Assembly (NCBI RefSeq): GCF_032884065.1
Contig: NC_088879.1
Coordinates: forward strand, 23,484,038 to 23,548,037
Direction: 5' to 3'
Source: Artemia franciscana
Lineage: Eukaryota; Arthropoda; Branchiopoda; Anostraca; Artemiidae
DNA: 64,000 nt
In this document: positions 11,602 to 62,968 of the stretch, piece by piece
Layout: every line of letters starts with the position of its first letter
How positions within the stretch are numbered: the first letter of the stretch is position 1
Program-made: the position numbers and the translations under genes
Notes under the pieces: model-generated
Told to the model about the DNA's origin: nothing
The model's input: only the letters and a program-made list of their open reading frames with translations
Databases searched by the model: none

Positions 11602-11772
11602 GTCAGTTATGTTTTCACAGTCTCTCTGTAGCAGTTGATAGGCTAGTTGGTCGCCTATGTCAACAGACTGTGTCACATCAATGAAATAGCACTGATTCTG
11701 GTGCCATAATATGTTATATTCGGATAAATCACCATGTACCAGACGCGCTTCTTTATAAAGCCGTTTCATCAT
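11602..11772 (-). CDS. RIOK3-like atypical protein kinase, catalytic-loop exon
   Basis: A 57-codon internal exon. The acceptor TTCTATTTTAG ends just before 11772 and the donor GTAAGT starts just after 11602; it is phase 0 at both ends. It begins MMKRLYKEARLVHGDLSEYN and carries the RIO catalytic loop, with Asp and Asn kept in GDLSEYN. ILWH follows, then the metal-binding Asp in FIDVTQSV, and it ends RDCENITD. RIO kinases are ATP-binding proteins; RIOK1 and RIOK2 act in maturation of the 40S ribosomal subunit, and RIOK3 is linked to the same pathway and to innate signalling. LWH and the residues around Cys-Tyr-Phe-Ile-Asp favour RIOK3 over RIOK1 (LYH). It follows the 17749-17894 exon without a gap. 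The next downstream exon was not found and may lie outside the window. Confidence 0.9.
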
Positions 11773-12469
11773 CTAAAATAGAAATCGATGTCAAATATGG
11801 CCTCAATTTATCAATAATTAACGTTTTTAGGTTAGTGGTAGCCGTAACTAAAACACAAAGTCTGAATTAGTTCTGTAGAATAATCTCGCCAACATGATAA
11901 ATAAAGCAGGCCTTAAATTGGTCTCTACACTACAGATTATATTGCCCTGGCAAAAGAAACGAATTAATTTTTAGCAAATAGGCGGGTCAAAGGCCCTTGA
12001 AAAACAAAACAAAATGGAAAAAAAGGCGGTTCTGGTCTTTCTTGCGCGCGGAGCATAATCACGATCAGCTTCCACGTCTCCAAAAATATTCAGGTCATAT
12101 CTTAACAAGGTCTTCATTTATTAACAAAAGTTACCATTTATTTAAACCTGACTTTTCTTACTATAGCCTCTGCAAAGAGGCTATAGTTTATTATTTGTAT
12201 TTATGTTCTTTATTATTTATTTTTATATATACGTTTTTTATTCTTATTCATTATTTAGTTAATGTTTTTATTTTTAACTGTTAATTGTACCTAAAATCAA
12301 TTTAATTAAAAATTTAACTAAAATTTTATTAGAATTAAAAATGAAATTAAAATTTTGAATATATCTTAATTAGTTAATTTGTTTTGTTTTTTTTTTTTTT
12401 TCTTCGCCAAGCCATTTCTCATGGAAGGAGTTATCGCAGAGACGAAAAAAAAAACTAGGTTTTTGTACA
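11773..12469. other. Intron of RIOK3-like gene
   Basis: AT-rich intronic DNA with no recognised element apart from the hairpin at 12160-12187. Frames here are low-complexity. Confidence 0.6.
12160..12187. other. Perfect 12-bp hairpin with GCAA loop
   Basis: ACTATAGCCTCT (12160-12171) and AGAGGCTATAGT (12176-12187) pair perfectly around GCAA. It lies in intronic DNA and matches no repeat family in the window. Confidence 0.85.
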
Positions 12470-12745
12470 GATACTACTAGTAAAAGTTCAAATATTTTGG
12501 ATTCACATCCAGAAGCCGTTATTAACAAAGAGAAAGAGATGAGATTAAATAAGTTAACAATTCCTAAAAACATTCAGGCTTTTACCACTATTTGTAAAAA
12601 AAAGTAGTTAGATAAATGCTACTAATAAAAGTTCAAATATTTGTGATTCACATCCAGAAGCCGTTATTAACAAAGAGAAAGAAATGAGAATAAATAAGTT
12701 AACAATTCCTAAAAACATTCAGGCTTTTACCACTATTTGTAAAAA
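12470..12745. repeat. Tandem duplication, unit about 147 bp
   Basis: Two adjacent copies, from about 12470 and about 12617, are nearly identical. Both contain CACATCCAGAAGCCGTTATT, AAGTTAACAATTCC and CAGGCTTTTACCAC and both end in an A-run. The high identity implies a recent duplication. Confidence 0.9.
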
Positions 12746-12759
12746 AAAAAAAAAGTTTT

Positions 12760-13084
12760 TCAACGTTCGCCGTCTTAATTAAATGTTTTACGAGTTATGA
12801 CTTCTTCATTTCTAAGGTTGGGAAGGCAGCGTTGTCTAACAAATCAATACTAGGGTTTAAAACATTTTCCAATATTTGACAACTTCAAATAATACCATAG
12901 AATTTACACAAATATCATTATATTAGTACAAATACCATAGAATTTAAATACTTTTTTGCAACTTTTCCGATATTTGACAATTTCAAATAATACAAGTTTT
13001 TGAAAAGTCAAAACAAAATGCAAGAATATATTTTCACCTTCATACCTTGCCTACTTGCAGGGATAGAAAGATTTTAATAAGTTT
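12760..13084. other. Intronic AT-rich DNA
   Basis: Contains the short direct repeat ATACCATAGAATTTA (twice near 12890-12945) and an ATATTTGACAA-TTCAAATAATAC motif twice. No gene seen. Confidence 0.45.
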
Positions 13085-13735
13085 AAATTTTAAAGTTGCT
13101 TTTTTAAGATTTTAAAATACACTTAAATTTTTGTAATTTATGTTGCAGGTTAATAGATTACGATGTTTCAAGGTTTGTAATTAAAACAAAAAGTTTGGCA
13201 TCAAAATACGCAAAACTTTTAATTAAGAAAGAGAACGTCAAAAAAAGGATTTTCTCATACGATTGCAAGTAAAAGCAGATGAAGATTTAAAAAAGTCTCT
13301 TGAAGAAAATTGTCTAAGGACAGTCTCAGCTATTCCTTTGACATAACTTACATGAAACCATAATCATGATGTAAGAAAATTTTCCAGAAGAATAATGACA
13401 GAAAGGTTAAAATAATTTTTTTAATTTTTCAAGTTTTAATCGTAAATTTTGATGCTTCAGTCTATAATTAGACCCTGATTGGCATTATTGAGATTTGTAA
13501 TCATAACAAGATGAAAGCATAATAACAGACAAAAGATTTGATTCAGAAAGGACGTCATTTTTTTTTTTTTTTACAGTTGCTATTAAAAGGAGAGGAGGAC
13601 TAATTAAATTTTTCAAAACAATTTTCTAAGGATAATCTGAGCTTTTATGTTGTATAGCTATTGCAATCACACTGAATGAAAAATATGGCTCATGTACACT
13701 TTCCAGAAGCATAATTAAGACAGATTAAAATGATT
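13085..13735. repeat. Diverged tandem pair, unit about 320 bp
   Basis: The blocks around 13178, 13312 and 13380 recur in the same order around 13498, 13623 and 13700 (CTAAGGA-A-TCT-AGCT; TTCCAGAAG-ATAA; TTAAAAT). The copies are substantially diverged, so the duplication is old. Confidence 0.6.
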
Positions 13736-13809
13736 AGGTCATTCAGTTGAAGGATCACGGATTGGTATTGGTTTTACTTTTTTGCAAACTATCTGGGGGG
13801 TAAATCCCT

Positions 13810-14800
13810 TGTGGTGTTGATTTTTGTTCACTTTCTAAAGATGAAACAGTTGCTAACCAGTTAAAGGGGCATTTGGCCAGAATAATCCAGTCTTTGGCGG
13901 CTCTTGATGTAAATAAAACGAACCAAGAGTATCAGAAGATTCCACATGATGATGTACCTATATCTACTATTTCTGAGGATCAAGTTTTTAAGTAAAACAA
14001 ATAAACTTAAAAGAACAATTATAGCTCCCAGATATTCCGATTGAACTTGTAAAAGTATTTTCTGACAAATTGACTTGGCCACTAACACACATTTTTAATT
14101 GCATTTCAGCTTCTTCAGTTTACCCACAGATATGAAAAACGGGGTATGTTACTCCAATCCCTAAAAAAATACTGAACTTAATGTCGATGGCGTGAGACGA
14201 ATCACTTTTACCCCCTTGTTTAGCAAAATGTACGAAAGCTTTGTAGCAAATTGGTTAAAAGCTGAAATTAAACCCTTCCTTGATCCTCATCAGTACTGTA
14301 ACAGAAAGAATACATCAACATCCCATTATCTTGTCAGTCTTTTACATTTTATTTTTAAGCCCTGGGTCCTATTCTTTTTCTAGTTATGATAAATGATATT
14401 GCTAATGACTATGAAGACCGTTGGAAATATGTTGATGATAAATAAATTTGTGAATCAAATGAATGAAGTAAAGCTCAAATTTTAATTGATAACGTGAAAA
14501 CTAAAGCTTCCGTTTCAAATATAACAGTAAATAACAGTAAATCTTCTATTTTAACTGTTTCATTTTTAAATTCTTCTGAACCAAATTTCCAACCAACTAC
14601 CTCTTAGGTAAGACTACCTAACTACCTCTATTAAACTCTTAGGAGTTATTATAACCACTGATTTAAAATGGGAAGCAAACATAACTAGTCTAGTAAAAAA
14701 CCGGTAATGCTGGGCTGCAGATGCTCAAGCTAATTTCGAAAGATAGCACCCCTCCAAATATTTACATCTTTTATTCACCCAATTCTGGACATATCCACCT
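13810..14800 (+). pseudogene. LINE reverse transcriptase, internally deleted remnant
   Basis: Successive plus-strand frames show the order expected for a non-LTR reverse transcriptase. First comes SLSKDETVANQLKGHL (13830 onwards), then DIPIELVKVFSDKLTWPLTH and GYVTPIPKK. Next are RRITFTPLFSKMYESFVANW and DPHQYCNRKNTSTSHYLVSL, the fingers region. Then GPILFLVMINDIAN and WKYVDD carry the active-site motif, and finally VKLLGVIITTDLKWEANITS. The palm segment carrying the first catalytic Asp is missing between about 14345 and 14360. Several stops and frame changes make it non-functional. No tail was identified. The sequence resembles CR1-like elements, but the clade is uncertain. Confidence 0.85.
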
Positions 14801-14881
14801 TCAAAGAAAACAAGCCATGAACCATAAACGAACATTAAGGACAGCCTGTCTCATTTCAAGCTAACAATATAACTAATATTG

Positions 14882-15257
14882 GTCAATAGATTATAGCTCA
14901 GTATATAGTATACTACTTAGCTCAAAAACAATAATAAGCTTGACTTATAAGCCGAATTTATTAAATTGCGGCCATTGTAATTATTTAAGATAAAAAAGTA
15001 ATAATAAGGCCTAAACCTTTCAGTAAGACTATGAAAAATATAGGTTACACATACTAGGCTATATAAGCAAATACTACTAAACTAATTAATAGATCAGTGC
15101 ATATAGTATAGTATATTATATAGCTCAAATACAACAATAAACTCGACTTATAAAACGTCGAGTATTTAGCTACTACGATTATAACCATAATAGAGCAAAA
15201 TATATAATAACGACTAAAACTTTTAGTTAAAACATTGAAAACTATATTATATAGGCT
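14882..15257. repeat. Tandem pair, unit about 200 bp
   Basis: Two related copies from about 14882 and about 15085 share GTATATAGTATA-like text, TAGCTCAAA-ACAA, ACTTATAA, GACTA-AAC-TTTAGT and a closing TATATAGGCT. The second runs into a TA microsatellite. Confidence 0.65.
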
Positions 15258-15259
15258 GG

Positions 15260-15344
<85 letters not shown>
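15258..15344. repeat. (TA)n microsatellite
   Basis: About 43 uninterrupted TA dinucleotides ending roughly 50 bp before an F1 copy. Confidence 0.98.
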
Positions 15345-15345
<1 letters not shown>

Positions 15346-15396
15346 TAATAAAACGCCTAATGCTTCCGTTTCATTCTTGGAGCCTTTGCCAAGGTA

Positions 15397-17296
15397 AAAC
15401 AAGAGCTAAGAGCTCATATGGCACTTGTGACGAGGCCAGAAGAGCCAAGAGCTCATATGATATGAGCTTTAACCAAATTCTAAGAATCAATAGATTGAAT
15501 TAAAAAGAAAACCAAAGGCTTAATACCGGTTGGGATTTGAAATAATGAGCTCGGAGTCACAATGTCCTTCTAAATATCAAAATTCATTAAGATCCGATCA
15601 CGCACTCGTAAGTTATAAATACCTCATTTTTCTAATTTTTCTTCTCCCTTCAACCCCCCAGATAGTCGAATCAGGGAAAACTACTTTATCAAGTCAATTT
15701 GTGCAGCTCCCTGACACGCCTACTAATTTTCATCGTCCTAACACTTCCAGAAGCACCAAACTTGCCAAAGCACTGAACCCTACCCCCTAACTCCCCCAAA
15801 GAGAGCGAACCCAGTACGGTTACGTCAATCACGAAACTACGACATTTGCTTATTTTACCCACCAAGCTTCATCCCGATTCCTCCACTCTAAGCGTTTTCC
15901 AAGATTTCTGATTTCCCCCTCCAGCTCCCCCCAATGTAACCAGATCTGGTCGGGATTTGCAATAAGAGCTTTGAGACATAAATATCAAATTTCATTAAGC
16001 TTCGGTCACCCGTACATAAGTTGAAAATACCTCAATTTTTCTAGTTTTTCCAAATTAACACCCCCCACCCCCCAGCTCCTCCAAAGAGAACGGATCCGTT
16101 CCAATTGTGTCAATCGCTTATCTAGAACTTGTACTTATTCTTCCCATCAAGTTTCATCCTGATCTCTCCACTCTAAGCGTTTTCCAAAATTTCTATTTTC
16201 CCCCTCCAACCCCTTATGTCCCCGGATCCAATTCGAGTCGAAAATGGAGCATCTGAGACATAAGATCCTTCTATATATTAAAATTCATTAAGATCCGATC
16301 ACCTAATCCGTAAGATAGAGTTACACGAATTTTCATGTTTCCCAAGAATTCCAGTTTCCCCCTCCAACTCTCCCCAATGTCACAGGAGCTGGTCGAAATT
16401 TTAAAAAGAGCTCTAAAGCACAAGATCCTTCTAAACATCGAACTTCATTAAGATCTGGTCATTCTTTCGTAAGTTACAGATACCTCATTTTTTCTAATTT
16501 TTTCGAATTAACCCCCACCCCCCCCCAAACTCCACCAAAGAGAGCGGATCTGGTCCAGTTATGTCAGTCACGTATCTTGGACTTGTTTTTATTCTTCCCA
16601 CCCAGTTTCATTCTGATCTCTCCGCTTTAAGTATTTCTAAGATTCCCCCCCCCCCAATGACGCTGGATCCGGTTGGGATGGAAAATGAGAGATCTGAGTT
16701 ACGACGTCATTCTAAATACGAAGTTTCATGAAGATCCGATCACTCCTTCGCAAGTTAAAAATATGTTATTTTTTCTCATTTTTCAGACCTACCCCCCCCC
16801 CCCCCCCCAACTCCCCCAAATAGAGCGGATCCGTTCCAATTATGGCAATCCCGTATCTAGGACTTGTGCTTATTTTTCCCACCAAATTTCATCCCGATCC
16901 CTCCATTCTAAGCGTTTTCCAAGATTTTAGAAGTCCCCCCATATCCCCCCTCCCCCAGTGTCACCATATCCGGTCGGGATTTAAAATACGAGCTCTGAGA
17001 CACGATATCCTTCCAAACATCAAATTTCATTAAGATCTGATCACCCGTTTGTAAGTGAAAAATGCCTCATTTTTTCTAATCTTTCCGATTTACCCCCCCC
17101 CCCCCCCAGATGGTCAAATCTGGGAAATAACAATTTCTAATTTAATCTGGTCTGGTTCCTGATACGCCTGCCAAATTTCATCGTCCTAGCTTACCAGGAA
17201 GTGCCTAAAGTAGCAAAACTGGGACAGATCGACAGACAGACAGACAGACTGACAGAATTTGCGATCGCTATATGTCACTTGGTAGATACCAAGTGA
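15397..17296 (+). mobile_element. F1 element, full length
   Basis: About 1.9 kb with both ends. The 5' end reads AACAAGAGCTAAGAGCTC, then TATGGCACTTG at 15417-15427 and a second AGCTCATA-TGA-TATGAGCT inverted pair. Core repeats follow: the anchor near GACACGATATCCTTC or variants falls at about 15550, 15972, 16252, 16410, 16695 and 16996, mostly 280-300 bp apart with one half-spacing of 158. Near the 3' end are a GACA/GACT microsatellite (about 17229-17256) and the hairpin arms CACTTGG and CCAAGTG. Each unit carries C-rich runs. No coding capacity. It sits in the RIOK3-like intron, antisense to the gene. Confidence 0.9.
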
Positions 17297-17748
17297 AAAG
17301 ACTAAATAGCTAAAATGCAGAACAAAATCGCATAGAATTTAAATGATTCTTATTTGTTAGGTTTCTTTCATTTTACCCGTTTTCTTTTTATTGTATACCG
17401 CTTTTTATCACCTTATGTTATTTTCTTGTATGTTTCAGTTATTTCCCTTTCGAGTCTTTTTCTTGTCGTTGATAAAGATTATCCGACGTGCAGCCGAAAT
17501 ACGCTTTTATTGTTTTTTGCTGTAAAAAACATAAATATGTTTTTTTTTTGTCTTAATGAAAAGTTTTACCCATTATTCCTATATATTTTTATCTCAATTG
17601 AACTCCAAATGGCAGAGAGACCCCCGAATTCTTTGTAATAAGAATGTTTATGTCAAACAATCCGTTAAATTACGTAAAATGAGTCCCCACAACTAAAAAA
17701 TATAGATAACTTGGAAAAAAATAAATTTAAAATGAAATGCTGATTTAC
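17297..17748. other. Intron of RIOK3-like gene
   Basis: AT-rich. A plus-strand frame of 94 codons at 17354-17638 is highly hydrophobic and T-rich with no recognisable motif; I treat it as chance. Confidence 0.55.
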
Positions 17749-17894
17749 TTTGTTTATTTGATTATACGCCAGAATTCGTTCTTCTTCGTTGAGAACTGAC
17801 TCCTTTAATGTGTTGGCTGGCTTGTCATCTTCGCCAATTAGGGACATCACCAACACATTTTTCTTTAAACAAATAACTTCTGGGCATTCAATCC
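17749..17894 (-). CDS. RIOK3-like atypical protein kinase, hinge-region exon
   Basis: A 146-bp internal exon. The acceptor TTTTTCTTCAACAG ends before 17894 and the donor GTAAAT starts after 17749. It enters with two bases that complete a Gly codon split with the 27.2-kb exon and leaves in phase 0, so the phases match both neighbours. The translation begins GIECPEVICLKKNVLVMSLI and continues GEDDKPANTLKESVLNEEER to AYNQINK. GI-CP, LVMS-IG and the spacing to the next exon are typical of the RIO hinge. LKK before the LVMS strand and AY-Q near the exon end favour RIOK3. The intron to the next exon is about 6 kb. Confidence 0.9.
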
Positions 17895-20502: not shown

Positions 20503-22446
20503 AAACAAGAGCTAAGAGCTCATATGGCACTTGTGACGAGGTCGGAAGAGCCGAGAGCTCATATGGTACGAGGTCGGAAGAGCCAAGAGCTCATTTGGAC
20601 GAGGTCGGAAGAGCCAAGAGCCAAGAGCTCATTTGGCACTTGTGAGAAGGTCAGAACCTAAAGTTAAACTTTATAGCACAAGATCCTTCTAAATATCAAA
20701 TTTCATTAAGATCTGGTCACCCTTTCGTAAGTTACAAATACCTCAATTTTCAAAATTACCTCCCCCCTCCCAATTCCACCAAAGAGAGCAGATCCGGTCC
20801 AGTTATGTCAGTCACGTATCTTAGACAGGTTTCTATTCTTCCCATCCAGTTTCATCCTGATCTCACCGCTTTAAGTATTTTCTAAGATTTCCGGTCCCCC
20901 CAACTGCCCCCCCCCAATTACGTTTGATCCGGTTGAGATTTAAGATAAGATATCAGAGTTATGAGGTCCTTCTAAATATGAAGTTTCATGAAGATCCGAT
21001 CACTCCTTCGTAAGTTAAAAATACGTTATTTTTTCTTATTTTTCAGAATTACCCCCCCCCCCCGCAATTAAGCGGATCCGTTCCAATTATGTAAATTACG
21101 TATGCAAGACTTTTGCTTATTTTTCCAACCAAGTTTCATCCCAATCCTTCCAATCTAAGGGTTTCCCATCATTTTAGGTCTCCCCACCCCAAACTTCCCC
21201 CAATGTCACCAGATCCGGTCAGGATTTAAAATAAGAGCTTTGAGCCACGATATCCTTCTAAACATCAAATTTCATGGAGATCCAATCACCCATTCGTAAG
21301 TTAAAAATACCTCATTTTTTCTAATTTTTCAGAATTAACCCCCCCCCCCAACTACCCAAAAGAGAGCGGATCCGTTCCGTTTATGTCAATCATCTATCTA
21401 GGACTTGTGGTTATTTTTCCCACCATGTTTCATCCCGATCCCTCCACTCTAAGTGTTTTCCAAGTTTTAGGTTTCCCCCTCCCAACTCCCCGCCCCCATC
21501 ACCAGATCCGGTCGGGATTTAAAATAAGAGCTCTAAGACACGATATCCTTCTAAACATCAAATTTCATTGAGATCCGATCACCCGTTCGTAAGTTGAAAA
21601 TACCTCATTTTTCTAATTTTTAAGACTTACTCCCCCCCTCCCAACTACCCCAAAGAGAGCAAATAAGTTCCGATTATGTCAATCATGTATCTGGGACTTG
21701 CGCTTATTTTTCCCATCAAGTTTCATCCCGATCCCTCTACTCTAAGTGTTTTCCAAGATTTTAGGTTTCCCCCCTCCAACTCCCTCCAATGTCATCAGAC
21801 CCAGTCGGGATTTAAAATAAGAGCTCTGAGACACAATATCATTCCAAACATCAAATTTCATTAAGATCCAATCACCCGCTCATAAGTTAAAAATACTTCA
21901 TTTTTTCTATTTTTCCGAATTAACCGGCCCCTTCCCCCCCCCAGATGGTCAAATTGGGAAAACGACTATTTCTAATTTAATCTGGTCCGGTCCCTGATAC
22001 GCTTACCAAATTTCATTGTCCTAGCTTACCTGGAAGTGCCTAAAGTAGAAAAACCGGGACTTTAGGTTTTCCCCCTCCAATTCCCCCCAATGTCATCAGA
22101 TCCGGTCGGGATTAAAAATAAGAGCTCTAAGACACAATATCATTCCAAACATCAAATTTCATTAAGATCCAAATACCCGCTGATAAGTTAAAAATACTTC
22201 ATTTTTTCTATTTTTTGCGAATTAACCGGGCCCCCACTCCCCCCCAGATGGTCAAATCGGGAAAATGACTATTTCTAATTTAATCTGGTCCGGTCCCTGA
22301 TACGCTTGCCAAATTTCATCGTCCTAGCTTACCTGGAAGTGCCTAAAGTAGCAAAACCGGGACCGACAGACAGACCGACAGACCGACAGACAGACCGACA
22401 GAATTGGCGACTGCTATATGTCACTTGGTTAATACCAAGTGCCATA
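20503..22446 (+). mobile_element. F1 element, full length
   Basis: About 1.94 kb with well-preserved ends. The 5' end shows AACAAGAGCTAAGAGCTC and TATGGCACTTG (20523-20533), with the GAGGTCGGAAGAGCC block iterated three times. Core units of about 290 bp follow, with alternating C-rich tracts. The last core segment, ending in GCCTAAAGTAG, is itself duplicated about 288 bp apart (near 22040 and 22340). The 3' end has (GACM)n at about 22362-22400, the hairpin CACTTGGTTAATACCAAGTG at 22422-22441, and the terminal CAAGTGCCATA at 22436-22446, which is the exact inverse of the 5' TATGGCACTTG. It lies antisense in the RIOK3-like intron. Confidence 0.92.
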
Positions 22447-27542: not shown

Positions 27543-28540
27543 TTTTATGGTACTTGGTATTAACCAAGTGACATATAGCGATCACAAATTCTGTCGGTCT
27601 GTCTGTCCCGGTTTTGCTACTTTAGGTACTTCCAGGTAAGCTAGGACGATGAAATTTGGCAGGCGTATCAGGGACCGGACCAGATTAAATTAGAAGTAGT
27701 CGTTTTCGCGATTTGATCATCTGGGCGGGAGTGGGGGGTCGGTTAATTCGGAAATAATAGAAAAAAAATAAGTATTTTTAACTTACGAACGGGTAATGGG
27801 ATCTTAATGAAATTTGATGTTTGGAAGGATATCTTGTCTCAGAGCTCTTATTTTAAATCCCGACCGGATCTGGTGACATTGGAGGGGGGGACCTAAAATC
27901 TTAGAAAACGCTTAAAATGGAGGGATCGGGATGAAACTTGGTGGGAAGAATAAGTAGAAGTCTTAGATACGCGATTAGCATAACCGGAAAAGATCTGCTG
28001 TTTGGGGGAGTTGGGGGGGGGGTTAATTCTGAAAATTAGAAAAAATGAAATATTTTTAACTTACGAAGGAGTGATTGGATCTTAATGAAATTTGAAGTTT
28101 GGAAGAATATCGTGTCTCAAAGCTCTTATTTAGAGTCCCGACTGGATCCGGTGACCTTGGGGAGGGGACATAAAATCTCGGAAAACGCTTAGAGTTTAGG
28201 GATAGGGATGAAACTTGGTGGGAAAAATAAGCACAAGTCATCGATACGTGATTAATATAAACGGAACAGATCCGTTCTCTTTGGGGAGTAGGGGAGGGGA
28301 GAAGTAATTCTGATAAATTGAAAAAATGAGGTATTTTCAACTTACGAAGGAGTGATCGGATCTTAATGAAATTTGATTTTTGGAAGGATATCGTGTCTCA
28401 GAGCTTTCATTTTAAATCCCAACCGGATCCGGTGACACTGGGGGGTGTTTGGGGGGAACCTAAAATCTTGGAGAACGCTTAGAGTGGAGGGATCGGGATG
28501 AAGCTTGGTGGTAAAAATATCAGAAGTCTTAATAATCGAG
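27543..28540 (-). mobile_element. F1 element, 5'-truncated
   Basis: The 3' end is complete: on the plus strand it starts TATGGTACTTGGTATTAACC with the hairpin, then TCTGTCGGTCTGTCTGTC at about 27592. About three core units with G-rich runs follow, and the copy stops near 28540 without the 5' terminus. The subterminal motif has one change (GTAC for GCAC). Confidence 0.88.
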
Positions 28541-29741
28541 ACTTAATATCAATTGACATCTGGGGCTCAGGTGGTGGACTTGTCGGGTAGATCATGTTTA
28601 CCACCGACAAGGCTAGTTTTAAACTAATAAGTATGAAAAAAAAGCTATAAATATGAAAGCTATAAAAATACATAGAAAGGATGCAGCATTGTTATAATCC
28701 GGCACGCTCCAAGCAAGGATAATTGAAAAAGGACAGCAATATTGACGAAAAAGGACACAAGGAATATTAGATCAAGCTATTAAGATACACTAGAGAAACT
28801 ATATTCATCATAGGTAATACATTGCAGAAGAGAGCATGGACGTATTCAGAAGAGCCGTATTGGTGCCCGCGGGAGTTTCCTGTTCTCTTAAATTGCGGGG
28901 AAAAGGCAATACGGGTCACGCACTTCCCATGTGATCTTCCTTAGTTCAGTATTTTCCACTAGTAAAGTCAGTGTCAATAAATAGAAAGGACAAATGTAAC
29001 AATCTATTTTAAAAGTTAATCTAAAATTTAAGAAATCTCCTTGCTGTAATAACTTTTTCTTATTCATTCAAAAATTCTGGAAGCCATCTAATTTTCTGTG
29101 GTGATCTAATTTGGAAAAAAAAACAGAGATATAAATAGGAATATGAAACAAAAATTACTTAAATTTTGTTTTACTAAAGTTGAAATTTCTTTTTTTATAG
29201 TTTCTTGGGAATTCGTTCTTTTGTACTAAGATCGTTACAGGTACCCTACATTTTATGGAAAATAGAGATTTTTTTTCGGCAGACAAGAGTAAGTGTGGAT
29301 TTGTCTTGTAAGAGCTATTTAACCAAACCAAACCCCATCGGTGATGTCCCACAAAGACATTTCGATCGAAAGGGGTATGCGAATTTCATAAGACAAATAC
29401 GCGCAGAACAAATCAAATAGCGTTGGGCAGACACTGGTACTAATAAATCCATGGTATAAACTTGTGGATTAACTGCTAATTATTTCACCAATCTCTAATC
29501 AAACCAAAAGACCAACTTGTCTGCAAGATAGTTCCAGCATTAGAGATCTATTGACCCATATGATCAAAGGATCGAACAGAACGAATAATCCTGGGAAAAA
29601 AAACATCTATATAATAATATTGATATTTAGAATAAAAGACGGGGACGTATTTTCCGTATGGGGGAAGTATTGTAATAAGCATAACTAAATGAATATAAAC
29701 TATTATTGATTAAATGTAAAAAACCATTCTAACTCGCTTTG
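28541..29741. other. No gene recognised
   Basis: Mixed AT-rich DNA. Short plus and minus frames around 29155-29420 overlap one another and show no recognisable domain. Confidence 0.45.
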
Positions 29742-29882
29742 GCGAGTTAGGTGCTTCTGGACGTGCTAGCACGATGAAAATTGGTAGGCGTGTCAGGGAG
29801 CTGCACAACTAGACTTGATAAAGTCGTTTTCCCCGATTCGAACATCTGGGGGGCTGAAGGGAGAGGAAAAATTAGAAAAATT
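29742..29882 (-). mobile_element. F1 fragment
   Basis: About 140 bp matching the segment of F1 that lies near 53722-53850, just inside the 5' region (GGACGTGCTAG, GGTAGGCGTGTCAGGG, GAGCTGCACAA). A small hairpin AACTCGC-TTTG-GCGAGTT sits exactly at its left edge. Confidence 0.8.
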
Positions 29883-34049: not shown

Positions 34050-35145
34050 AGTTGTTCTCTCTTAATGGTATTAGAACTAAAAAACAACACGGCTTACCAT
34101 TTTCAGTTTTTCTCCCCTTAGTTCGGCAATTAGTTTTATGATAAAAAGTCAAGCTTTTTTTTCCCTTTTTAATAATGGTGTAAATCTTTCAGTCATTTTT
34201 CTTCTTCGTTTTTGGTATGAGAATTCTTTCCTCCGAATTAATAAATCTGGATCTTCGTTTGTCCGTTTATGTCGAGGTGTCAAGCAGGGAGGGGTTTTAT
34301 CACCTAGTATATTCAAAATGTGCATTTCTGGTATTTTAGATGAAATTAGACCAAAATAATTTTATTGGACTCTCAGATGTTTTTTATCTTGCTTATGCAG
34401 ATGACCTTTTACTTTTGTGTAAAAATAAGCAAGGTCTCTCGTTTATGGTCTCAAAAGTTTCACGTCTATTTTCTAATATTGGTCTTTCTCTTAATGTTGA
34501 GAAATGTGAATTTCTAGTTTTTAATGGTCCGACTTCCTCTAATGCTCCCTTAGCTTGTCGCGGTTTTTCAATACATTTTGTTTCCACCTTTCGGTGGTTG
34601 GGTATTACTGTTACGAATTCAATTTCTTGCCTACGGCAGTGCACTGTTCGTGATATTCAAAAAAAAAATTCAAACGGGCTATTCTATGATAGTTGCTAAT
34701 CGAGCGAAGTATAATAGACGTGCACTCGGTAGACCATTTTGTGATCATTCTGTCCTTTATCTTTCTGGTCTTTATCCCCTTCTAAAGACAAAAGATGTTA
34801 ATCAGATTCGGATTTTTTATTTCAGATATTGTAAATTTTTACTTTATCTCCCCCCTTGGTATAGCAATAGGAAGATAATTCGTAAGTTTGATGTCCCTGA
34901 CATAAGTGCAAAGTTGGCCCTCATGTATGGAAGGTTGTCGGAATCAGCTTTTTATCGTTTATCGCCTCATCATCCTTTGGTCCGTCTGTTCGGTTAATCT
35001 CATTGTAGCTCGTTGTATGTTTTTTCTATTTGTAGTGTATTTTACTTGTAGTGTATTTCATTTTTTTTCTTTTTGTTACTCCACAAGTGCCATAACTTGT
35101 TATGATGTGGGTTAAAAATAAATTATTATTATTATTATTATTATA
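34050..35145 (+). pseudogene. LINE reverse transcriptase, 5'-truncated remnant
   Basis: Reverse-transcriptase motifs in order: LLRFWYENSFLRINKSGSSF, CRGVKQGGVLSPSIF (template-grip region, about 34270-34314), YLAYADDLLLL with the catalytic YADD at about 34385-34405, IGLSLNVEKCEFLVF, and FRWLGITVTN. The C-terminal thumb follows with LYLSGLYPLL and FDVPDISAKLALMYGRLSES, ending at a stop near 34997. Frames change twice, so the copy is inactive. A 3' UTR of about 120 bp and an (ATT)n tail at about 35118-35143 mark the 3' end, as in CR1, I and Jockey-type elements. It is on the opposite strand to the RIOK3-like gene. Confidence 0.88.
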
Positions 35146-41048: not shown

Positions 41049-43815
41049 TTTTATGGTACTTGGTATTAACCAAGTGACATATAGCAATCGCCAATTCTGT
41101 CGGTCTGTCTGTCTGTCTGTCAGTCCCGGTTTTGCTACTTTAGGCACTTCCAGGTAAGCTAGGACGATGAAATTTGGCAAGCGTATCAGGGACCGGACCA
41201 GATTAAATTAGAAATAGCCGTTTTCCCGATTTGACCATCTGGGGGGGAATGGGGGCCCGGTTAATTCGCACAAAATAGAAAAAATGAAGTAATTTTAACT
41301 TATGAGCGGGTGATTGGATCTTAATGAAATTTGATGTTTGGAAGGATATCGTGTCTTAGACCTTTTATTTTAAATCCTGACTGGATCTGGTGACATTCGG
41401 GGGGGGGGGGGGGCTGGGAGGGGGAAACCTAAAATCTTGGAAAACACTTAAGAGTGGAGGGATCGAGATGAAACTTGATGGGAAAAATAAGCGCAAGTCC
41501 CAGATACATGATTGAGATAATCGGAACTGATTCGCTCTCTTTGGGGTAGTAGGCGGGGGGAGTAATTCTTAAAAATTAGAAAAAATGAGGTGTTTCCAAC
41601 TTACGGACGGGTGATCGGATCTCAATGAAATTTGATGTTTAGAAGGATATCGTGTCTTAGAGCTTTTATTTTAAATCCCGACCGGATCTGGTGATGGGGG
41701 CGGGGAGTTGGAAACCTAAAACTTGGAAAACACTTAGAGTGGAGGGATCGGGATGAAACATGGTGGGAAAAATAAACACAAGTCCTAGATAGATGATTGA
41801 CATAAACGGAACGGATCCGCTCTCTTTGGGGAAGTTGGGGGGGGGGGGGGGGTATTTCTGAAAAATTAAAAAAAATGAGGTATTTTTAACTTACGAACGG
41901 GTGATCGGATCTCAGTGAAATTTAATGTTTAGAAGGATATCGTGTCTTAGAGCTTTTATTTTAAATCCCGACCGGATCTGGTAATGGGGGCGGGGAGTTG
42001 GGAGGGGGAAACCTAAAACTTGGAAAACACTTAGAGTGGAGGCATCGGGATGAAACTTGGTGCGAAAAAAAACACGAGTCCTAGATACATGATTGACATA
42101 ACCAGAACGGATCCGCTCTCTTTGGGGTAGTTGGGGGGGGGGTTAATTCTGAAAAATTAGAAAAAATGAGTTATTTTTAACTTACGAACGGGTGATTGGA
42201 TCTCCATGAAATTTGATATTTAGAAGGATATCGTGTCTCAAAGCTCTTATTTTAAATCCTGACCGGATCTGGTGACATTGGGGGAAGTTTGGGGTGGGGA
42301 AACCTAAAATGATGGAAAACGCTTAGATTGGAGGGATTGGGATGAAACTTGGTTGGAAAAATAAGCAGAAGTCTTTCATACATGATTTACATAATTGGAA
42401 CGGATCCGATCAATTGCGGGGGGGGGGGGTAGTTCTGAAAAATAAGAAAAAATGACGTATTTTTAACTTACGAAGGAGTGATAGGATCTTCATGAAACTT
42501 CATATTTAGAAGGACCTCGTAACTCGGATATCTTATTTTAAATCTCAACCGGATCAAGCGTAATTGGGGGGGGGGGGGGCAGTTGGGGGGACCGTAAATC
42601 TTAGAAAACAAACTTACGAACGGGTGATAGGATCTTAATGAAATTTGATGTTTGGAAGAATATCGTGTCCAGAGCTGTTATTTTGAATTCCGACCAGATC
42701 TGGTGACATTAGGGGGAGTTGGAGGGGGAACCGAAAATCTTTGAAAACGCTTAGAATGGAGGGATCGGGATGAAACTTGTTGGAGATAATAATTAGAAAT
42801 CTTAGACACGTTATTGACACAACCGGAACGGATCTGCTCTGTTTGGTAGAGTTGGAGGGGGTTAATTCAAAAAATTAGGTATAATGAGGTATTTTTAACT
42901 TACGAAGGATGATCTGATCTTAATGAAATTTAAAGTTTGGAAGAACGTCGTGTCTCAGAGCTTTTATTTTAAATCCCGACTGGATTCGGTGACATTGGGG
43001 GGAATTGAGGGGGGAACCTAAAATCTTGGAAAACACTTAGAGTGGAGGAATCGGGATGAAGCTTGGTGTAAAAATAAGCACAAGTCCTAGATACGTGATT
43101 GACTTAACCGGAACGGATCCGCTCTCTTTGGGTGAGTTGGGGGTGGAGGGTTAATTTTGAAAAATTAGAGAAAATGAGGTATTTTTAACTTACGGAGGAG
43201 TGATCGGATCTTAATGAAATATGATTTTTGGAAGGATATCGTGTCTAAAAGCTCTTTTTTTAAAATCTCAACCTGATCTCGTGACATTGGGGGGAGTTGG
43301 AGGGCACATAAAATCTTGGAAAACGCTTAGAGTGGAAAGACTGGGATTAAACTTGGTGACAAAAATAATCGTAAGTCCAAGAAACGTGAAAGACATAACC
43401 GTAACGGATCCGTTCTCTTTGGGGGAGGAGGGTTAATTTTGAAAATTAAAAAAAAACAAGGTATTTTTAACTTAGGAAGGAGTGATCAGATCTTAATGAA
43501 ATTTCATGTTTAAAGGATATCATGTCTCGGAGTTCTTGTTCTAAATCCCGACCGGATCCGTTGACATTGGAGAGAGTTGGGAAAGGCCTAAAATCTTGGG
43601 AAAGGCTTATAGTGGAGGGATCGGGATGAAACTTGATTGGAAAAATAATAGACACCTGATTGACATTGGAACGGAAAAGAGAGCGGAACGGACCCGCTCT
43701 CTTTGAGGGAGTGGGGGGGGGTAATTTTGAAAAAATAGGTATTTTTTACTTGCGAAGGAATGATCGGATCTTAATAAAATTTAATCTTTGGAATGATATC
43801 ATGTCTCATGATAAA
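41049..43815 (-). mobile_element. F1 element, long tandem core, 5' end missing
   Basis: The 3' end is intact: hairpin ACTTGGTATTAACCAAGT near 41057-41074, then (GTCY)n at 41097-41127. About nine core units follow. The anchor GGATATCGTGTCT or a variant lies near 41344, 41645, 41935, 42226, 42512, 42657, 42943, 43233, 43514 and 43793, so spacing is 279-301 bp except one of 145. Each unit has two G-rich runs (for example 41399-41412 and 41836-41851). The copy stops at about 43815 without the 5' terminus. No coding capacity. Confidence 0.92.
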
Positions 43816-48830: not shown

Positions 48831-50655
48831 GGCCATATTATGGAGGTCCTATAAAGCTTTTTTGGTGTATCTTAAGTTAGGCCCCTATTAAACAAATTTT
48901 GTCAAGAAATAACCAACAGTAAAGTCTTCTAGTTTCTTGCATGATAACTATCATTTATTTCTGACTATTATCCTAGCTTAAATATATTCGTTGCTGGACA
49001 CCTACTAAGTGGAGAAGAGTCTGGTAAAAATAAGTGGTGTCAACTTCAAGTGTATTCATTGGACCAGGCTGCCTAGTCGGTCACTCAAACAGGTGTCTAT
49101 GCATATAATACCGAAATTTGTTGCTTTTTGGAATGCTTGTTTTGTTAATGTACAGTGACAGTGATAATATAAAATTAAGAAAAGCAATATGAGCAAGATT
49201 TATATACCTCTGAGAACTTATAATTTTTTGATTGATGTACATTTTTGAAATGATTTATTCATACTAGATGTTCATTTACAAGTTTTTGACCTATCCTGGG
49301 ATCCCTGTTCCAAAAGTGAGATTGGATTTTTCAAAGCTGGGGGCTTAATCCTCCTCTCTGTTTAGTGAGCACAAATCAATAATTGAAGCTTCGATCATTT
49401 CTATCTTATATTCAATGAGTATAAAAGGGTAATTTCCTTTATTTATTTGTCTTGTTTTGTCCTATAAGAATTTTTTTTGTCCAGCAGAATAAATGTTGAT
49501 CTTCTTAAGTTCAAATTCCACAAAAAGAAAGTTTAAATTTCACAAACAGAAAGCTTAAATTTCTAGATTAAAGTAAAAGTTCTGAGAAATACTGGTTTTA
49601 TATTTTTTTCCCTCTTAGGCTATGTTGCAAAAAATTCGTAAGCTAAGTGATCTCATTAAAAGTAATTAACTGCTTCAATTCCTAAAGACGACAAAAATTC
49701 ATTGAACCTGAAACAGACCACTGAAAGAAAAACCCTATTAAAAAAAAATCTTACCCACAGAAAAATTTATCAGAGTTATCTTTGATCCAGATGTTTATGG
49801 TTTAATCATATTAGTTAATGATAAAGAAATGCGAAGATGTATTATTTTCTAATCACCTGTTTCTCATACCAGTAGAAGTTCAATATAGTTTTCCTCTCTT
49901 TTGTTATTTATTCAGAGCAAGTCTTGTCACCTACAGCCTTCGCGACCAGTACCCTCTTATTTTAGTTACATTTTCTTTCCCTCCCAAGGTAAGTACCCAA
50001 AAAACCCAAATCTCGCGAGAAGGAGAAAGCGTTGCTAAGTAATTTGTTCGCATCAATTATTATAAATACGAGCATAAGGGGGAAAAAGTGGAATGAGAGC
50101 TGACGAATTATTAGCGCAATTGCATACAAGGTAGATTTATTGGAAAGAAAAAACTATTCTTAACAAAACATAACGAATTCACATTTTATGTATGACAAAA
50201 CAAAAATTGAAAGTCAATAACATAAATCATTTGAGAAACGGCAAACGACCGAAAACCAAATAATAGGGGAAGATAAATCCAAAAAAGAAATAAAAATAAA
50301 AGAGGAAACAAAAGAAAAAATTTAAACGGAAAAAAGTGAAAAACGTTTAAATTAAGTAAAAATCAATTGCTTAAAAAAGCATTAAAAATCAAATCAAATA
50401 AGAATCCTGAATCATAAATGGCGAAAACTTCAGACATTACTCCAATGCAATTCTGTAGGATTATCTCAAGCCAATAAAAGGGTCGTTTAGCACAATGAAT
50501 TAAGAACAGCAATCAAAACTGTATTTTTCAGGGTCTTAACAGCTGAAATTCAGATAATCTAAGCAAAAATCAAAAAAAGAGCGATAAACTGCTTGCTTAC
50601 AAATACATTCTAAGATTACACTTGATAGCCTTCACTTTTTTCGTTCATACCCTTT
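48831..50655. other. No gene recognised
   Basis: AT-rich single-copy DNA. One splice-flanked frame at 49873-49988 is described in the findings. Confidence 0.45.
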
Positions 50656-53600
50656 TTATGGCACTTGGTATTGACCAAGTGACATATAGCAATCGCAAAT
50701 TCTGTCGGTCCCGGTTTTGCCACTTTAGACACTTTTAGGAAAGCTAGGACGATGAAATTTGGCAGGCGTATCAGGGACCGGACCAGATTAAATTTGAAAT
50801 AATCGTTTTCCAGATATGACCATCTGGGGGTGGGGGAGTGGGGGGCCCGTTGATTCGGAAAAAATTGGAAAATTGAAGTATTTTTAACTTACGAACGGTT
50901 GATCAGATCTTAATGAAATTTGATGTTTGGAAGGACATCGTGTCTCAAAGCTGTTATTTTAAATCCCGACCGAAACTGGTGACATTGAGGGGGGGAACCT
51001 AAAAACTTGGAAAACACTTAAGAGTGGAGGGATCGGGATGAAACTCGGTCGGAAAAATAAACAGAAGTCCTAGATACATGATTGACATAACCGGAACGGA
51101 TCCACTCTCTTTGGGGTAGTTGGGGGGGGGGGCAATTCTGAAAAAATAGAAAAAATGAGGGTTTTTTAACTTAGGAACGGGTGATCGGATCTCAATGAAA
51201 TTTGATATTTAGATGGATATCGTGTCTCAGAGCTCTCATTTCAAATTCTGGCCAGATCTGGCGACATTGGGGGGAAGGTGGGAGGGAGAAACCTAAAATC
51301 TTAGAAAACACTTAGAGTGGAGGGATCGGGATGAAACTTGATGGAAAAAATAAGCGCAAGTCCTAGATACATGATTGACATAACCGGAACGGATCCGCTC
51401 TCTTTGGGGTAGCTGGGGCGGGGGTTAATTCTGAAAAATTAGAAAAAACTAGATCTACGTTGCATGTGCAACGTGAGGTGTGGCGGCAACCTTTGCTCGG
51501 CTTCGCCGAGTAAAGTGTTGCGAGAGCAACACTTTGGTTTTGTTTCCTCGCTGCAACTAAACGCTGAAGTTGTTAATCTGTAAGGATGCTAAAATACATA
51601 CTAGGTACACCAACTCGCAAAAGTTGCAAACACCTCATTGCTAAAGATGATTGTAGCCTTACAGCCGGTTATTACTTACAAGTCCCCTACATGTCTTACC
51701 ACTGGAACCAAATTGGTCTTACCATCAAATACAACGGAAACTAAAAATAGGTACACCAACTAGTAAGAGTTGCGAGCCCCTCATTGCCGAGGATGATTAT
51801 GAGCTAACAGCCGACTGTTGCTTACAACTCCCCTATATGTCTCACAATTGGTATCGGCCTATTTTTGGTTTCAGTGTGTACCTTACTACTGAAGTTGTCA
51901 ACCCCTTTAAACTTTCAAACTGGTATATCTCATGAAGGAATTTTTGTACAAAAAAATGGATGGATATACTTTGATCAGCTCATCAAAAGCTATCGACTGC
52001 CGTCGAAAAAATCTATCTGTCTTAGTTCAAAAGTTGACTTTTTTGCCGTAGGCCAACTTTCTAACGTCATCACTTAGAAAGGAGCGAAGGATAAACTCTA
52101 ATTTCTTTAGCAATGAGAGAACTTTTAAAGTTTAAGAGGCACATCTGACACCATTTCTCTACCGCAATCCCAAGTGCGAAAAACCGAATGATAAACTCAG
52201 CCGAAATCACGGCAGCACTTTCGGACTTGTGGGAAAATGCCGCTTTTTTGCTTCTCTAAATTTTTCTATTTATCACTCAAAGAAGATATATTGGCTGTGG
52301 GGCAGGGTAACTGTCGCATATATTTAACACTTATAGATTTTAGTCCATCTTCAATTTGAAACTGGTGCCTGCCTGCTTGCCTGCTAGAACGGAGCTTTCC
52401 ATTCGAAAGCAGAAACATGGTTTGATGAAACGAAAGCTTGGCTGCATAACTTCAGACAGTCCTCTCTGACATAGGCTATACAACTCCTCTTCACTTCACA
52501 CACAATAGGCTCTGGCTCAAGGACAAGCAAAAACCATCCTTTTTGGCCCCAGGCAAGAGTTCTACGAACCTTTCCAAAATGTAAAGTCATATTCATCAAT
52601 CCGGCCTAAGGTCCACACTTTCCGTAAAAACCGCAGAGGTTAGACCCTTACCACTTTCTAGGAATAAGCTGAAATCGGGATGCTAGGAACAAAAAAAAAA
52701 CACGACAAAACCAAAGTGTTGCTCTCGCAACACAATGAGGTACTTTTAACTTACGAACGGGTGATTGGATCTCAATGAAATTTAACACTTAGAAGGATAT
52801 CGTGTCTCCAACCTCTTATTTCAAATCCCGACCGGATCTGGTGACATGGGGGGGAGTTTTGGGTGGGGGTACCTAAAATCATGGAAAACGCTTAGATTGG
52901 AGGGATCGGGATGAACCTTGGTGGGAAAAATAAGCAGAAGTCCTAGATACGTGATTTACATAATTGGAACGGATCCGTTCTATTGGGCGGGGGGGTAATT
53001 ATGAAAAATTAGAAAAAATGACGCATTTTTAACTTACGTAGGAGTGATCGGATCTTCATGAAACTTCATATTTAGAAGGACCTCGTAACTCAGATCTCGT
53101 AATTTAAATTTCAACCGGATCCAGCGTCATTGGGGGGGAGAGACCAGAAATCTTAGAAAATACTTAAAGCGGAGCGACCAGGATGAAACTGGATGGGAAG
53201 AATAAAAACCTGTCTAAGATACGTGACTGACATAACCGGACTGGATCTGCTCTCTTTGGTGGATTTGGGAGGGGGATAATTTTGAAATTTGAGGTATTTG
53301 TAACTTGTGAAAGCGTGACCAGATCTTAATGAAAAATGATATTTAGAAGGATCTTGTGCTTTAAAGCTCTAATTTTAAATTCCGACCAGATCCTGTGATA
53401 TTGGGGGGAATTGGAGGGGGAAACCATAATTCTTGGAAAACGTGAAAATTAGGGTATTTTTATCTTACGAATAGGTGATCGGTCTTAATGAAATTTGATA
53501 TTCAGAAGGAATTCATAACTCAGAGCTCTTATTTCAAATCCCGACCAGATATTTTGACTTTGGGGGGAGTTGGAGGGGGAAATCTTGGAAAACACTTGTA

Positions 53601-54083
53601 GTGGAGGAATCGGGATGAAGCTTTGTGGATAGAATAGGCAAATGTCCTTGATACGTGATTGACTTAACCATACTGGATTCACTCTCTTTGGGGGAGTCTG
53701 GGGGGAGGGGTTCAGTGATTAGGCGAGTTTGGTGCTACTGGACGTACTAGGAGGATGAAAATTGGTAGGCGTGTCAGGGAGCTGCACAAATTGACTTGAT
53801 AAAGTCGTTTTCCCAGATTCGACCATCTGGGGAGCTAAAGGGAGAGGAAAAATTAGGTATTTATAACTTACGAGTCGGTGATCGGATCTTAATGAATTTT
53901 GATATTTAGAAGGACATCGTGACTCAAGAGCTCTTATTTTAAATCCTGACCGGCGTTAGGCCTCTGATTTTCCGTTTAAATCAATCTATTGATTCTTAGA
54001 ATTTTGTTAGAGCTCATACCATATGAGCTCTTGGCTCTTCTTGCCTCGTCACAAGTGCCATATGAGCTCTTAGCTCTTGTTTA
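50656..54083 (-). mobile_element. F1 element, full length, interrupted by F3
   Basis: About 2.14 kb of F1 split by the 1.29-kb F3 insertion at 51449-52733. The 3' end starts TATGGCACTTGGTATTGACC, with TGGCACTTG near 50658 forming the inverted partner of the 5' motif, but the GTCY microsatellite has shrunk to about one unit. About six core units follow. The 5' end at 54083 shows, on the minus strand, AACAAGAGCTAAGAGCTC and TATGGCACTTG. Confidence 0.92.
51449..52733 (-). mobile_element. F3 element, Helentron-like, nested in F1
   Basis: 1285 bp, richer in GC than its surroundings. A perfect 29-bp inverted repeat (51515-51543 and 52705-52733) lies at the outer right end but 66 bp inside the left end. 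Each arm contains GTTGC-GAGA-GCAAC. Beyond the left arm are the hairpin CTCGGCTTCGCCGAG (51496-51510), the near-palindrome ACGTTGCATGTGCAACGT (51457-51474) and a terminal CTAG. On the minus strand this is a 5' terminal repeat, and an internal 3' repeat followed by hairpins and CTAG, which is the Helentron/Helitron2 plan. Inside is an imperfect tandem pair of about 137 bp (AGGTACACCAACT-G). Frames of 70-71 codons at 51865 (plus) and 52384 (minus) match no family I know. Confidence 0.75.
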
Positions 54084-61696: not shown

Positions 61697-62968
61697 TACT
61701 TACTTACTTACTTAATGCTCCTGCCGAAATGCTTCCGGCGTCGAGAGTGATGCTACATGGTACGTCCATTTGGACTGGTCTCTTGCAAGTATGTGGACAT
61801 CCTCCTGAATATTTGCCATGACTAAGAAGGCGCCTGCCATCTGGTTGGGGGATGACCTCTTGGGGTCCCCCAAAGATCCCACCGTGCAGCACGGGATCAA
61901 AGTCAAAAATCGTTCGTGCGGGAGTGTTGGGGTGCATGCGAAGGAGATGTCCGTACCAGCGTAGTGTTCGTTGGGTGAGTTGGACTGAGTAGGGCGTTTG
62001 AGCAGTTAACGCCAGGAGGTTCTCGTTGCTAACAAAATCGTGCCAGCGTAGTCCTTCAATGCGGCGAAGATGTTTTGTTTGGGCTATATTTACGGTGCTA
62101 AGCACAGACTGAGTGGCCGGCCAAGTTTCGGCTCCGTAAAGAATCACGGATCCCACCAAAGTATTACGGCTGATAAAAGGTTTCCTCCAAAGGGCACTTA
62201 GTCTCCCCACTACTGCTGAGGCTTTGGCAATTCGGTGCATTAGACCTTTAAGGATTGATCCGTCATTTGAGAGGATAGAGCCAAGGTATGTAAATTCCTC
62301 AACAATCTCAGCTGGTTTGTCACCGACCATTAGGACTGGCGGGGGACGCGGTGAGTTACAGGATTCAACAAACATCACTTTTGTCTTCTGCCAATTAATC
62401 GACAGCCCTATCTTTAAGGCTTCATCAGCAAGGATTTGTAGGGCTTCTGTGAGCTTCGACGGTGAATCGGAGACAAGAGCAAGGTCATCGGCATAGTCAG
62501 CGTCTGAAAGTACTCTATCACCGTAATGCAACCCAAACTGGAGGCGGTTTATGGTCCGAGTCATAATGTAGTCGATGACACAATTAAATAGTTCTGGGGC
62601 AGCAGCATAACCCTGACGGACTCCAGTATTGATTTTAAAAGATGAGCTGCGTCTGCCATTGACTTGCACGCAGCTCTCAGTCCCTTCATGGTGCCGCTCG
62701 ACAAGAGTTCAGTACTTCTCAGGTAGTCCCGACTGCTGGTCGACAGAATCGAAAGCAGCCTTGAAATCCGCAAAGGCAACATATGCTTTTTGTTGAAATT
62801 ATCGAGTCTTTTCTATCAGCTGCCGCATTGTGAACATTTGCTCCACAGTGGACCTTACTGGCATGAAGCCAGCCTGTTGGATTCTTCGTTGGCTTCTGAA
62901 GAAAATGGTACAGCGGTCCAGGAGGGTCATAACGAAGAGCTACCCGGGCAAAGAGAGGAGTAACCAAG
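61697..62968 (-). mobile_element. Young 5'-truncated LINE (RTE/CFDP2-like) with reverse transcriptase
   Basis: Minus strand. The longest frame (61704-62669) contains NTGVRQGYAAAPELFN, DADYADDLALVSDS with the catalytic YADD, GLSINWQKTKVMFV, FTYLGSILSNDGSI, and the C-terminal signatures HLRRIEGLRWHDFVSNENLL and LRWYGHLLRMHPNTPART. Upstream, in another frame, AFADFKAAFDSV carries the first catalytic Asp (62741-62777). A frame change near 61890 separates it from the natural-looking C-terminus SKWTYHVASLSTPEAFRQEH. The 3' tail is (AAGT)4 at 61697-61712. The flanks duplicate TTTTAACT/TTTTAACC (61689-61696, 62969-62976), and the empty site exists in copy A. It is a dead-on-arrival insertion, truncated within the reverse transcriptase. 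Confidence 0.92.

Follow-up and report, generated by a model that had tools for sequence, protein, structure and literature searches.

A probable family of array-carrying, non-autonomous Helitron2/Helentron elements in the brine shrimp Artemia franciscana

The copies and their ends

A stretch of 64,000 nucleotides of the brine shrimp Artemia franciscana (contig NC_088879.1, positions 23,484,038 to 23,548,037; the window in what follows) contains six copies of a short, protein-less family of mobile DNA, which occupy 10,237 bp or 16.0% of its length, and in addition one stray half unit. On the structural grounds set out below, the copies are very probably non-autonomous Helitron2/Helentron elements (HINEs). 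The copy on which the finding is based, copy F (50657-54081, + strand; all strands are those of the family, or HINE, orientation), has both ends, with TTTT on its left and T on its right. Both ends are also found in copy B (15398-17295, -), whose 5' subterminal inverted repeat (subTIR) is without its first 5 nt, and in copy C (20504-22446, -), which is complete. Copies D (27546-28531, +) and E (41052-43808, +) have only the TATGG end, which is the intact 5' end, and are truncated within a B half and an A half of the core, respectively; copy A (1283-1786, +) is a 3' part with the AACAAG end only, its 3' end lying at 1786. The stray piece, an L-type half unit with no ends (29738-29875, +), shares 91% identity with copy F over 138 bp. 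The original prediction of seven copies or pieces is therefore borne out, and the fixed plan that it ascribed to them is seen with both ends in three; two copies are without the AACAAG end and one is without the hairpin end. The 400-bp flanks show no match among the six copies, which are therefore separate insertions.

Matches to the end motifs were counted in the window and compared with the numbers expected from shuffled sequence. There are 7 matches to AACAAGAGCTAAGAGCTC at up to 3 mismatches (0.03 expected), 4 of them exact, and 6 matches to CACTTGGTTAATACCAAGTG (0.00 expected), two of which are one palindromic site read on both strands. The subTIR, TATGGCACTTG, gives 27 matches at up to 2 mismatches where 12.9 are expected; six of its 7 exact matches lie within the family. 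The exact match outside the family, at 35084-35094 (-), adjoins a palindrome, CATAACTTGTTATG, and may be due to chance or be the relic of a related element.

The 5' end, on the TATGG side, reads TTTT / TATGGCACTTGGTATTAACCAAGTGACATATAGC, followed by the GTCY-type units and then by the array, with few base differences between copies. In copy F the TTTT target run (50653-50656, +) is followed directly by the 5' subTIR, or asymmetric terminal inverted repeat (ATIR), TATGGCACTTG (50657-50667, +), which pairs with an adjacent inverted repeat in a predicted hairpin (ACCAAGTG.CATA; 50657-50686, +). This hairpin folds as DNA at -11.2 kcal/mol (z -7.25, with 0/200 shuffles as good), and the corresponding z values are -7.99 in copy C, -6.87 in copy B and -5.43 in copy D, the loop being 4 nt in all four. 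The folds cover B, C, D and F; the sequence of copy E there is identical to that of D. A GTCY-type microsatellite directly follows the 5' module in all five copies with a 5' end, and ranges from the 10 units of copy C (22360-22399) to the 2 units (GTCG GTCC) of copy F, where the tract GTCGGTCC (50704-50711, +) is only 8 bp long, a shortness that had gone unmentioned.

The 3' end reads CACAAGTGCCATA T GAGCTCTTAGCTC TTGTT / T, and the family's end sequences can be written as TATGGCACTTGG...ACCAAGTG and CAAGTGCCATATGAGCTCTTAGCTC. In copy F the 3' subTIR or ATIR, CAAGTGCCATA (54052-54062, +), lies 19 nt before the 3' end and is the exact inverse of the 5' copy, as had been noted before. It is followed by a palindrome, GAGCT-CTT-AGCTC (54064-54076, +), 5 nt before the end; GAGCTCTTAGCTC, with its 5-bp stem, is identical in all four copies that have a 3' end and is predicted in all four folds. 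The subTIR pair thus consists of 11 identical bp, 0 and 19 nt from the ends, and 11 identical subTIR bp is the limit that the excerpted literature gives for one HINE family. In the 5' hairpin of copies C, D and F (the folded copies that have that base), the G at position 5 of the subTIR is left unpaired, and its partner is nonetheless kept in the 3' subTIR in 4/4 copies, which supports pairing of the two subTIRs with each other. Copy C has a second 3' subTIR with one mismatch at 20632-20642, 109 bp before the last, and between the two lie 2.8 copies of a hairpin block of about 32 bp, of which A, B and F have one each. The additional subTIR and blocks are possible spare terminators.

All five 5' ends are preceded by TTTT, as are only 2.7% of the positions in the window, and T follows all four 3' ends, so that T adjoins 9/9 ends overall. 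The base before the TTTT run, on the family strand, is C in four of the five copies with a 5' end (50652 in copy F, 41047, 27541 and 17300 being compared), a small sample that perhaps reflects part of the target preference. A longer 5' terminus extending beyond TATGG, to which this C might point, was rejected because TTTT^T is a published Helitron2 target.

Core arrays, the insertion in copy F and the rest of the window

The greater part of each copy is a tandem array. In copy F it is opened by an L half unit (50720-50829, +) and continues at 50886-53953 (+) as mostly alternating A and B halves of about 290 bp per pair, interrupted by an insert and ending in an L and a shortened A half. The A half aligns over about 110 bp, and A starts are 271-301 bp apart in 19 regular intervals, a count that excludes array ends and the irregular junctions at which A directly follows A (146 bp in copy E, 162 bp in F and 172 bp in B). 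The A and B consensus sequences are related in a global comparison (z 5.8, with 0/1000 shuffles reaching the score) and in a local one (score 50 against a shuffle maximum of 43, 0/500), and the core is therefore correctly called dimeric, as it was in the original prediction. L opens the array in all five copies with a 5' end, and L plus a shortened A half close it beside the 3' module in copies A, B and F. The relation of L to B is weak (3/1000 shuffles as good globally, 33/500 locally), and homology of L to A was rejected, because 181/1000 shuffles score as well (161/500 in the local test).

Comparison of 65 half units (67 hits minus two that are cut off) bears on how such arrays spread. The best match lies in another copy for 28/32 A, 22/24 B and 8/9 L half units, which might be offered as proof that whole arrays move; this was rejected, because the counts are at chance level, shuffled copy labels equalling them in 626/2000 trials for A and 415/2000 for B. 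Mean identities within and between copies are about equal (A, 80.0 within and 80.0 between; B, 81.4 and 80.2; L, 80.4 and 81.4), arguing that the copies have undergone no private homogenisation. The order of the half units is collinear across copies to a degree that order shuffles reach in only 7/2000 cases for A and 1/2000 for B; single pairs run against it (E-F, F-E and B-E for A, B-C for B). This collinearity suggests that the arrays were for the most part already assembled when they moved. Copy E has a junction at 42572-42610 (+) where one A half adjoins another with no intervening B; most half units before this junction match copy C best, and those after it have their best matches in other copies. 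Copy E may on these grounds be a composite array.

The insert in copy F, which the original prediction did not mention, is a foreign sequence with the features of a second rolling-circle-like element (51449-52735, -; 1,287 bp). Read on the minus strand, the insert and its borders are CCTCA / TT GTGTTGCGAGAGCAACAC ... ACGTTGC-ACAT-GCAACGT AGATCTAG / TTTTTTCTAA. The insert has a 29-bp subTIR at a distance of 2 nt from the 5' end, with an inverted copy at 51515-51543, 66 nt from the 3' end, and a 3' hairpin lies 8 nt before the terminal CTAG. The two terminal hairpins are both predicted to fold (z -3.39 and -2.20), and the element is non-coding, its longest stop-free frame not exceeding 92 codons. 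Seven sister core junctions, chosen for comparison, provide its empty site: six of them read TCA plus six T and the seventh TCA plus eight T. A 5' TT, a 3' CTAG and insertion between A and T without target-site duplication (TSD) all fit this single copy. The same letters would also fit an element that starts with GTG and is flanked by a 2-bp duplication of TT.

The remainder of the window carries pieces of other genes and elements. Its 115 open reading frames (ORFs; stop to stop, at least 70 amino acids) were searched against Pfam in sets of 86 and 29, and the matches at E 0.01, all from the set of 86, are to reverse transcriptase, RIO kinase, a hAT remnant and DUF3023. Copy B lies inside a 5,976-bp intron (11773-17748) of the RIO-kinase gene, on the same strand; the flanking exons, 17749-17894 and 11602-11772 (-), have AG/GT borders and give a continuous reading frame when joined. 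Reverse-transcriptase pieces are found at 61707-62708 (-) and 34340-34696 (+). The ORF of the former has 81 protein matches, among which 7 are named Artemia franciscana (75-94% identity over 19-60% of the query); those from other named animals show 29-43% identity, and the closest protein shows 89%. A bivalve origin of the window was rejected on the strength of the Artemia matches. The window has no Rfam family at the gathering score, and exact scans found the 5' end in neither viral contigs nor prokaryote genomes and the core and 3' end in no viral contig. Its GC content, 34.9%, can be set beside the 34.7-34.9% of A. franciscana assemblies (PMC11492255; this and the other papers are cited here for excerpts, and statements about them are limited to these).

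Class and polarity of the family

The TATGG or hairpin end of the family is assigned here as 5' and the AACAAG end as 3', an assignment that rests on agreement with published plans because there is no ORF to orient the element. The original prediction had the ends the other way round: its 5' end corresponds to the family's 3' end, and what it called the terminal hairpin would, by the published plans, be the 5' hairpin. The earlier orientation amounts to the same class of element with reversed polarity, the AACAAG end being 5' and the hairpin end a 3' rolling-circle terminator. Of the two hairpins, that at the TATGG end is by far the stronger, as might be expected of a terminator, and where an ORF is absent any choice of polarity is formally arbitrary, a point made for DINE-1 (PMC2374699). 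Reversal would, however, put the 5'-side subTIR 19 nt inside and make the 3' one terminal, and it would move the microsatellite to the 3' side and render the target A-rich, all of which is opposite to the published plans; this orientation is accordingly considered improbable. The correction matters in practice to any search for read-through products or for an autonomous partner.

Alternatives outside the rolling-circle class fare worse. A pair of inverted repeats in a non-coding element with a tandem core could describe a miniature inverted-repeat transposable element (MITE), mobilized by the DDE transposase of a cut-and-paste transposon and carrying tandem repeats as cargo, and both DINE-1 and pearl were formerly called MITEs (PMC2374699, PMC7492417). 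One of the two repeats, however, lies 19 nt inside and so they are not both terminal. The flanks of copies B, C and F, the three with both ends, were searched for the duplication of 5-8 bp that would betray such a transposon, and none of constant length was seen. At the boundaries given above these flanks share only 1-3 T; longer matches, reaching 7 bp in copy C and 5 bp in copy F, require a shift of the boundaries and are T-rich and without constant length. A MITE is thus very unlikely. Still less credible is a dispersed satellite or foldback element without transposition signals of its own, spread by recombination or as a passenger: most of each copy is indeed tandem array and one half unit stands alone without ends, but the same unique ends recur at unrelated sites, their flanks being mutually unlike. 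A canonical Helitron (Helitron1), with 5' TC, 3' CTRR and insertion between A and T, was rejected because the ends are TATGG and TTGTT.

Several observations weigh against assignment of the family to the HINEs. None of the 115 ORFs of the window matches a Rep, helicase or endonuclease at E 0.01, and no empty site for this T-run-target family was seen within the window. The fold of the short 3' palindrome is only modestly more stable than those of shuffled sequence (z -0.85 to -2.4), and copy B is without five bases of its 5' subTIR. The 3' subTIR and palindrome lie 19 and 5 nt from the end, and the corresponding distances in mite HINEs are 38-60 and 8-35 nt (PMC4067079). Where boundaries fall within T runs, their position is uncertain by a few bases, and the best-match counts of the half units contribute no evidence, since shuffled copy labels do equally well. 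The HINE assignment nevertheless remains very probable, and the placement as a HINE or DINE-1-like Helentron derivative, first proposed from the layout, is upheld by structure; the likening to pearl in that proposal holds as an analogy only, the host being a crustacean.

By analogy with the named families, a HINE of this kind would depend on a Rep/helicase protein encoded elsewhere in the genome, which would recognise the paired 5' and 3' subTIRs and the hairpins. Single-strand rolling-circle copying would, on the same analogy, begin at the hairpin (TATGG) end and might stop at the AACAAG end, where the 3' and 5' subTIRs would pair as has been proposed for Helitron2 (PMC3627910). Insertion would take place after TTTT and before T, without target duplication, and the satellite-like array would be carried along as cargo.

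Relation to known rolling-circle families

Rolling-circle transposons, termed simply Helitrons, have been reported to make up 8.81% of the A. franciscana genome (PMC11492255). The family described here is a concrete candidate for part of that fraction, with defined ends, target and polarity. It places the array-carrying HINE plan, already known from flies and oysters, in a crustacean. Apart from this it is an ordinary mobile element, and its type has been described before in flies, oysters and algae. A literature search found no paper pairing Artemia with Helentron; searches on Helentron in crustaceans or Daphnia, and on Artemia with Helitron, gave no such element by title among the matches listed, and a text search for the end motifs gave, among the matches listed, titles unrelated to transposable elements.

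The ends resemble most directly those of Helitron2. In that group the 5' ATIR lies 0-2 bp from the end within a 5' hairpin, and the 3' ATIR lies some 20-30 bp from the other end, with a hairpin downstream of it (PMC3627910). Non-autonomous Helitron2 elements of Chlamydomonas share with the present family the terminal 5' ATIR hairpin, the internal 3' ATIR and the TTTT target, and the 19 nt that separate the 3' subTIR from the end here are close to the 20-30 nt of Helitron2 (PMC3627910). One of these elements, Helitron-1N1_CRe, has TTTT before and T/C after its insertion point, and only 1 of 200 copies shows a TSD (PMC3627910). The Chlamydomonas elements are 657 and 673 bp long, and the cited excerpt mentions neither a GTCY microsatellite nor a core array for them (PMC3627910).

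Both of these additional features are found in the animal families. The order of parts in DINE-1 is subTIR, partial inverted repeat, GTCY microsatellite, central repeats and 3' stem-loop, with TT targets (PMC2374699). The DINE-1 elements of Drosophila and the HINEs of mites have in common with the Artemia family the subTIR, GTCY microsatellite, tandem repeats, 3' stem-loop and T-rich targets, and like it are non-coding; the partial inverted repeat beside the 5' subTIR is also present both in DINE-1 and here. The differences are in detail: TATGGCACTTG is unlike the DINE-1 subTIRs in the excerpted list, and the 3' stem is 5 bp long here and 7-11 nt in DINE-1. In the oyster Crassostrea gigas, Cg_HINE shares a subTIR of 11-12 bp, an inverted repeat 1-12 nt away and T-rich targets, as well as a GTCY/GTCC/GTCK microsatellite before the array and a right end made of a subTIR and a palindrome (PMC7492417). 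Oyster monomers are mostly 140-180 bp (PMC7492417), and the unit in Artemia is a pair of such halves totalling about 290 bp. Pearl is a family of bivalves, and its likeness to that of the brine shrimp is one of plan.

The insertion in copy F finds its closest parallel in proto-Helentron-Pi of Phytophthora infestans, which has 5' TT, 3' CTAG and insertion between A and T without TSD (PMC4067079). The nested element would share these features if its junction is not read as a TT duplication; proto-Helentron-Pi is about 14 kb long and coding, and the nested element has 1,287 bp and palindromic subTIRs like those of mite HINEs, which lie 38-60 nt from the 3' end (PMC4067079). Elements of oysters that combine CTAG ends with subTIRs have been regarded as possible intermediates (PMC7992393). 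A tentative and on balance doubtful proposal is that two kinds of Helitron2 derivative coexist in the brine shrimp. One would be the array-carrying HINE with a T-run target, which may account for a sizeable share of the 8.81% rolling-circle fraction; the other would lack coding capacity and combine proto-Helentron ends (TT...CTAG, A^T) with palindromic subTIRs of Helentron type. If this is correct, the nested element would represent, in an animal, the intermediate that has been proposed between Helitron and Helentron.

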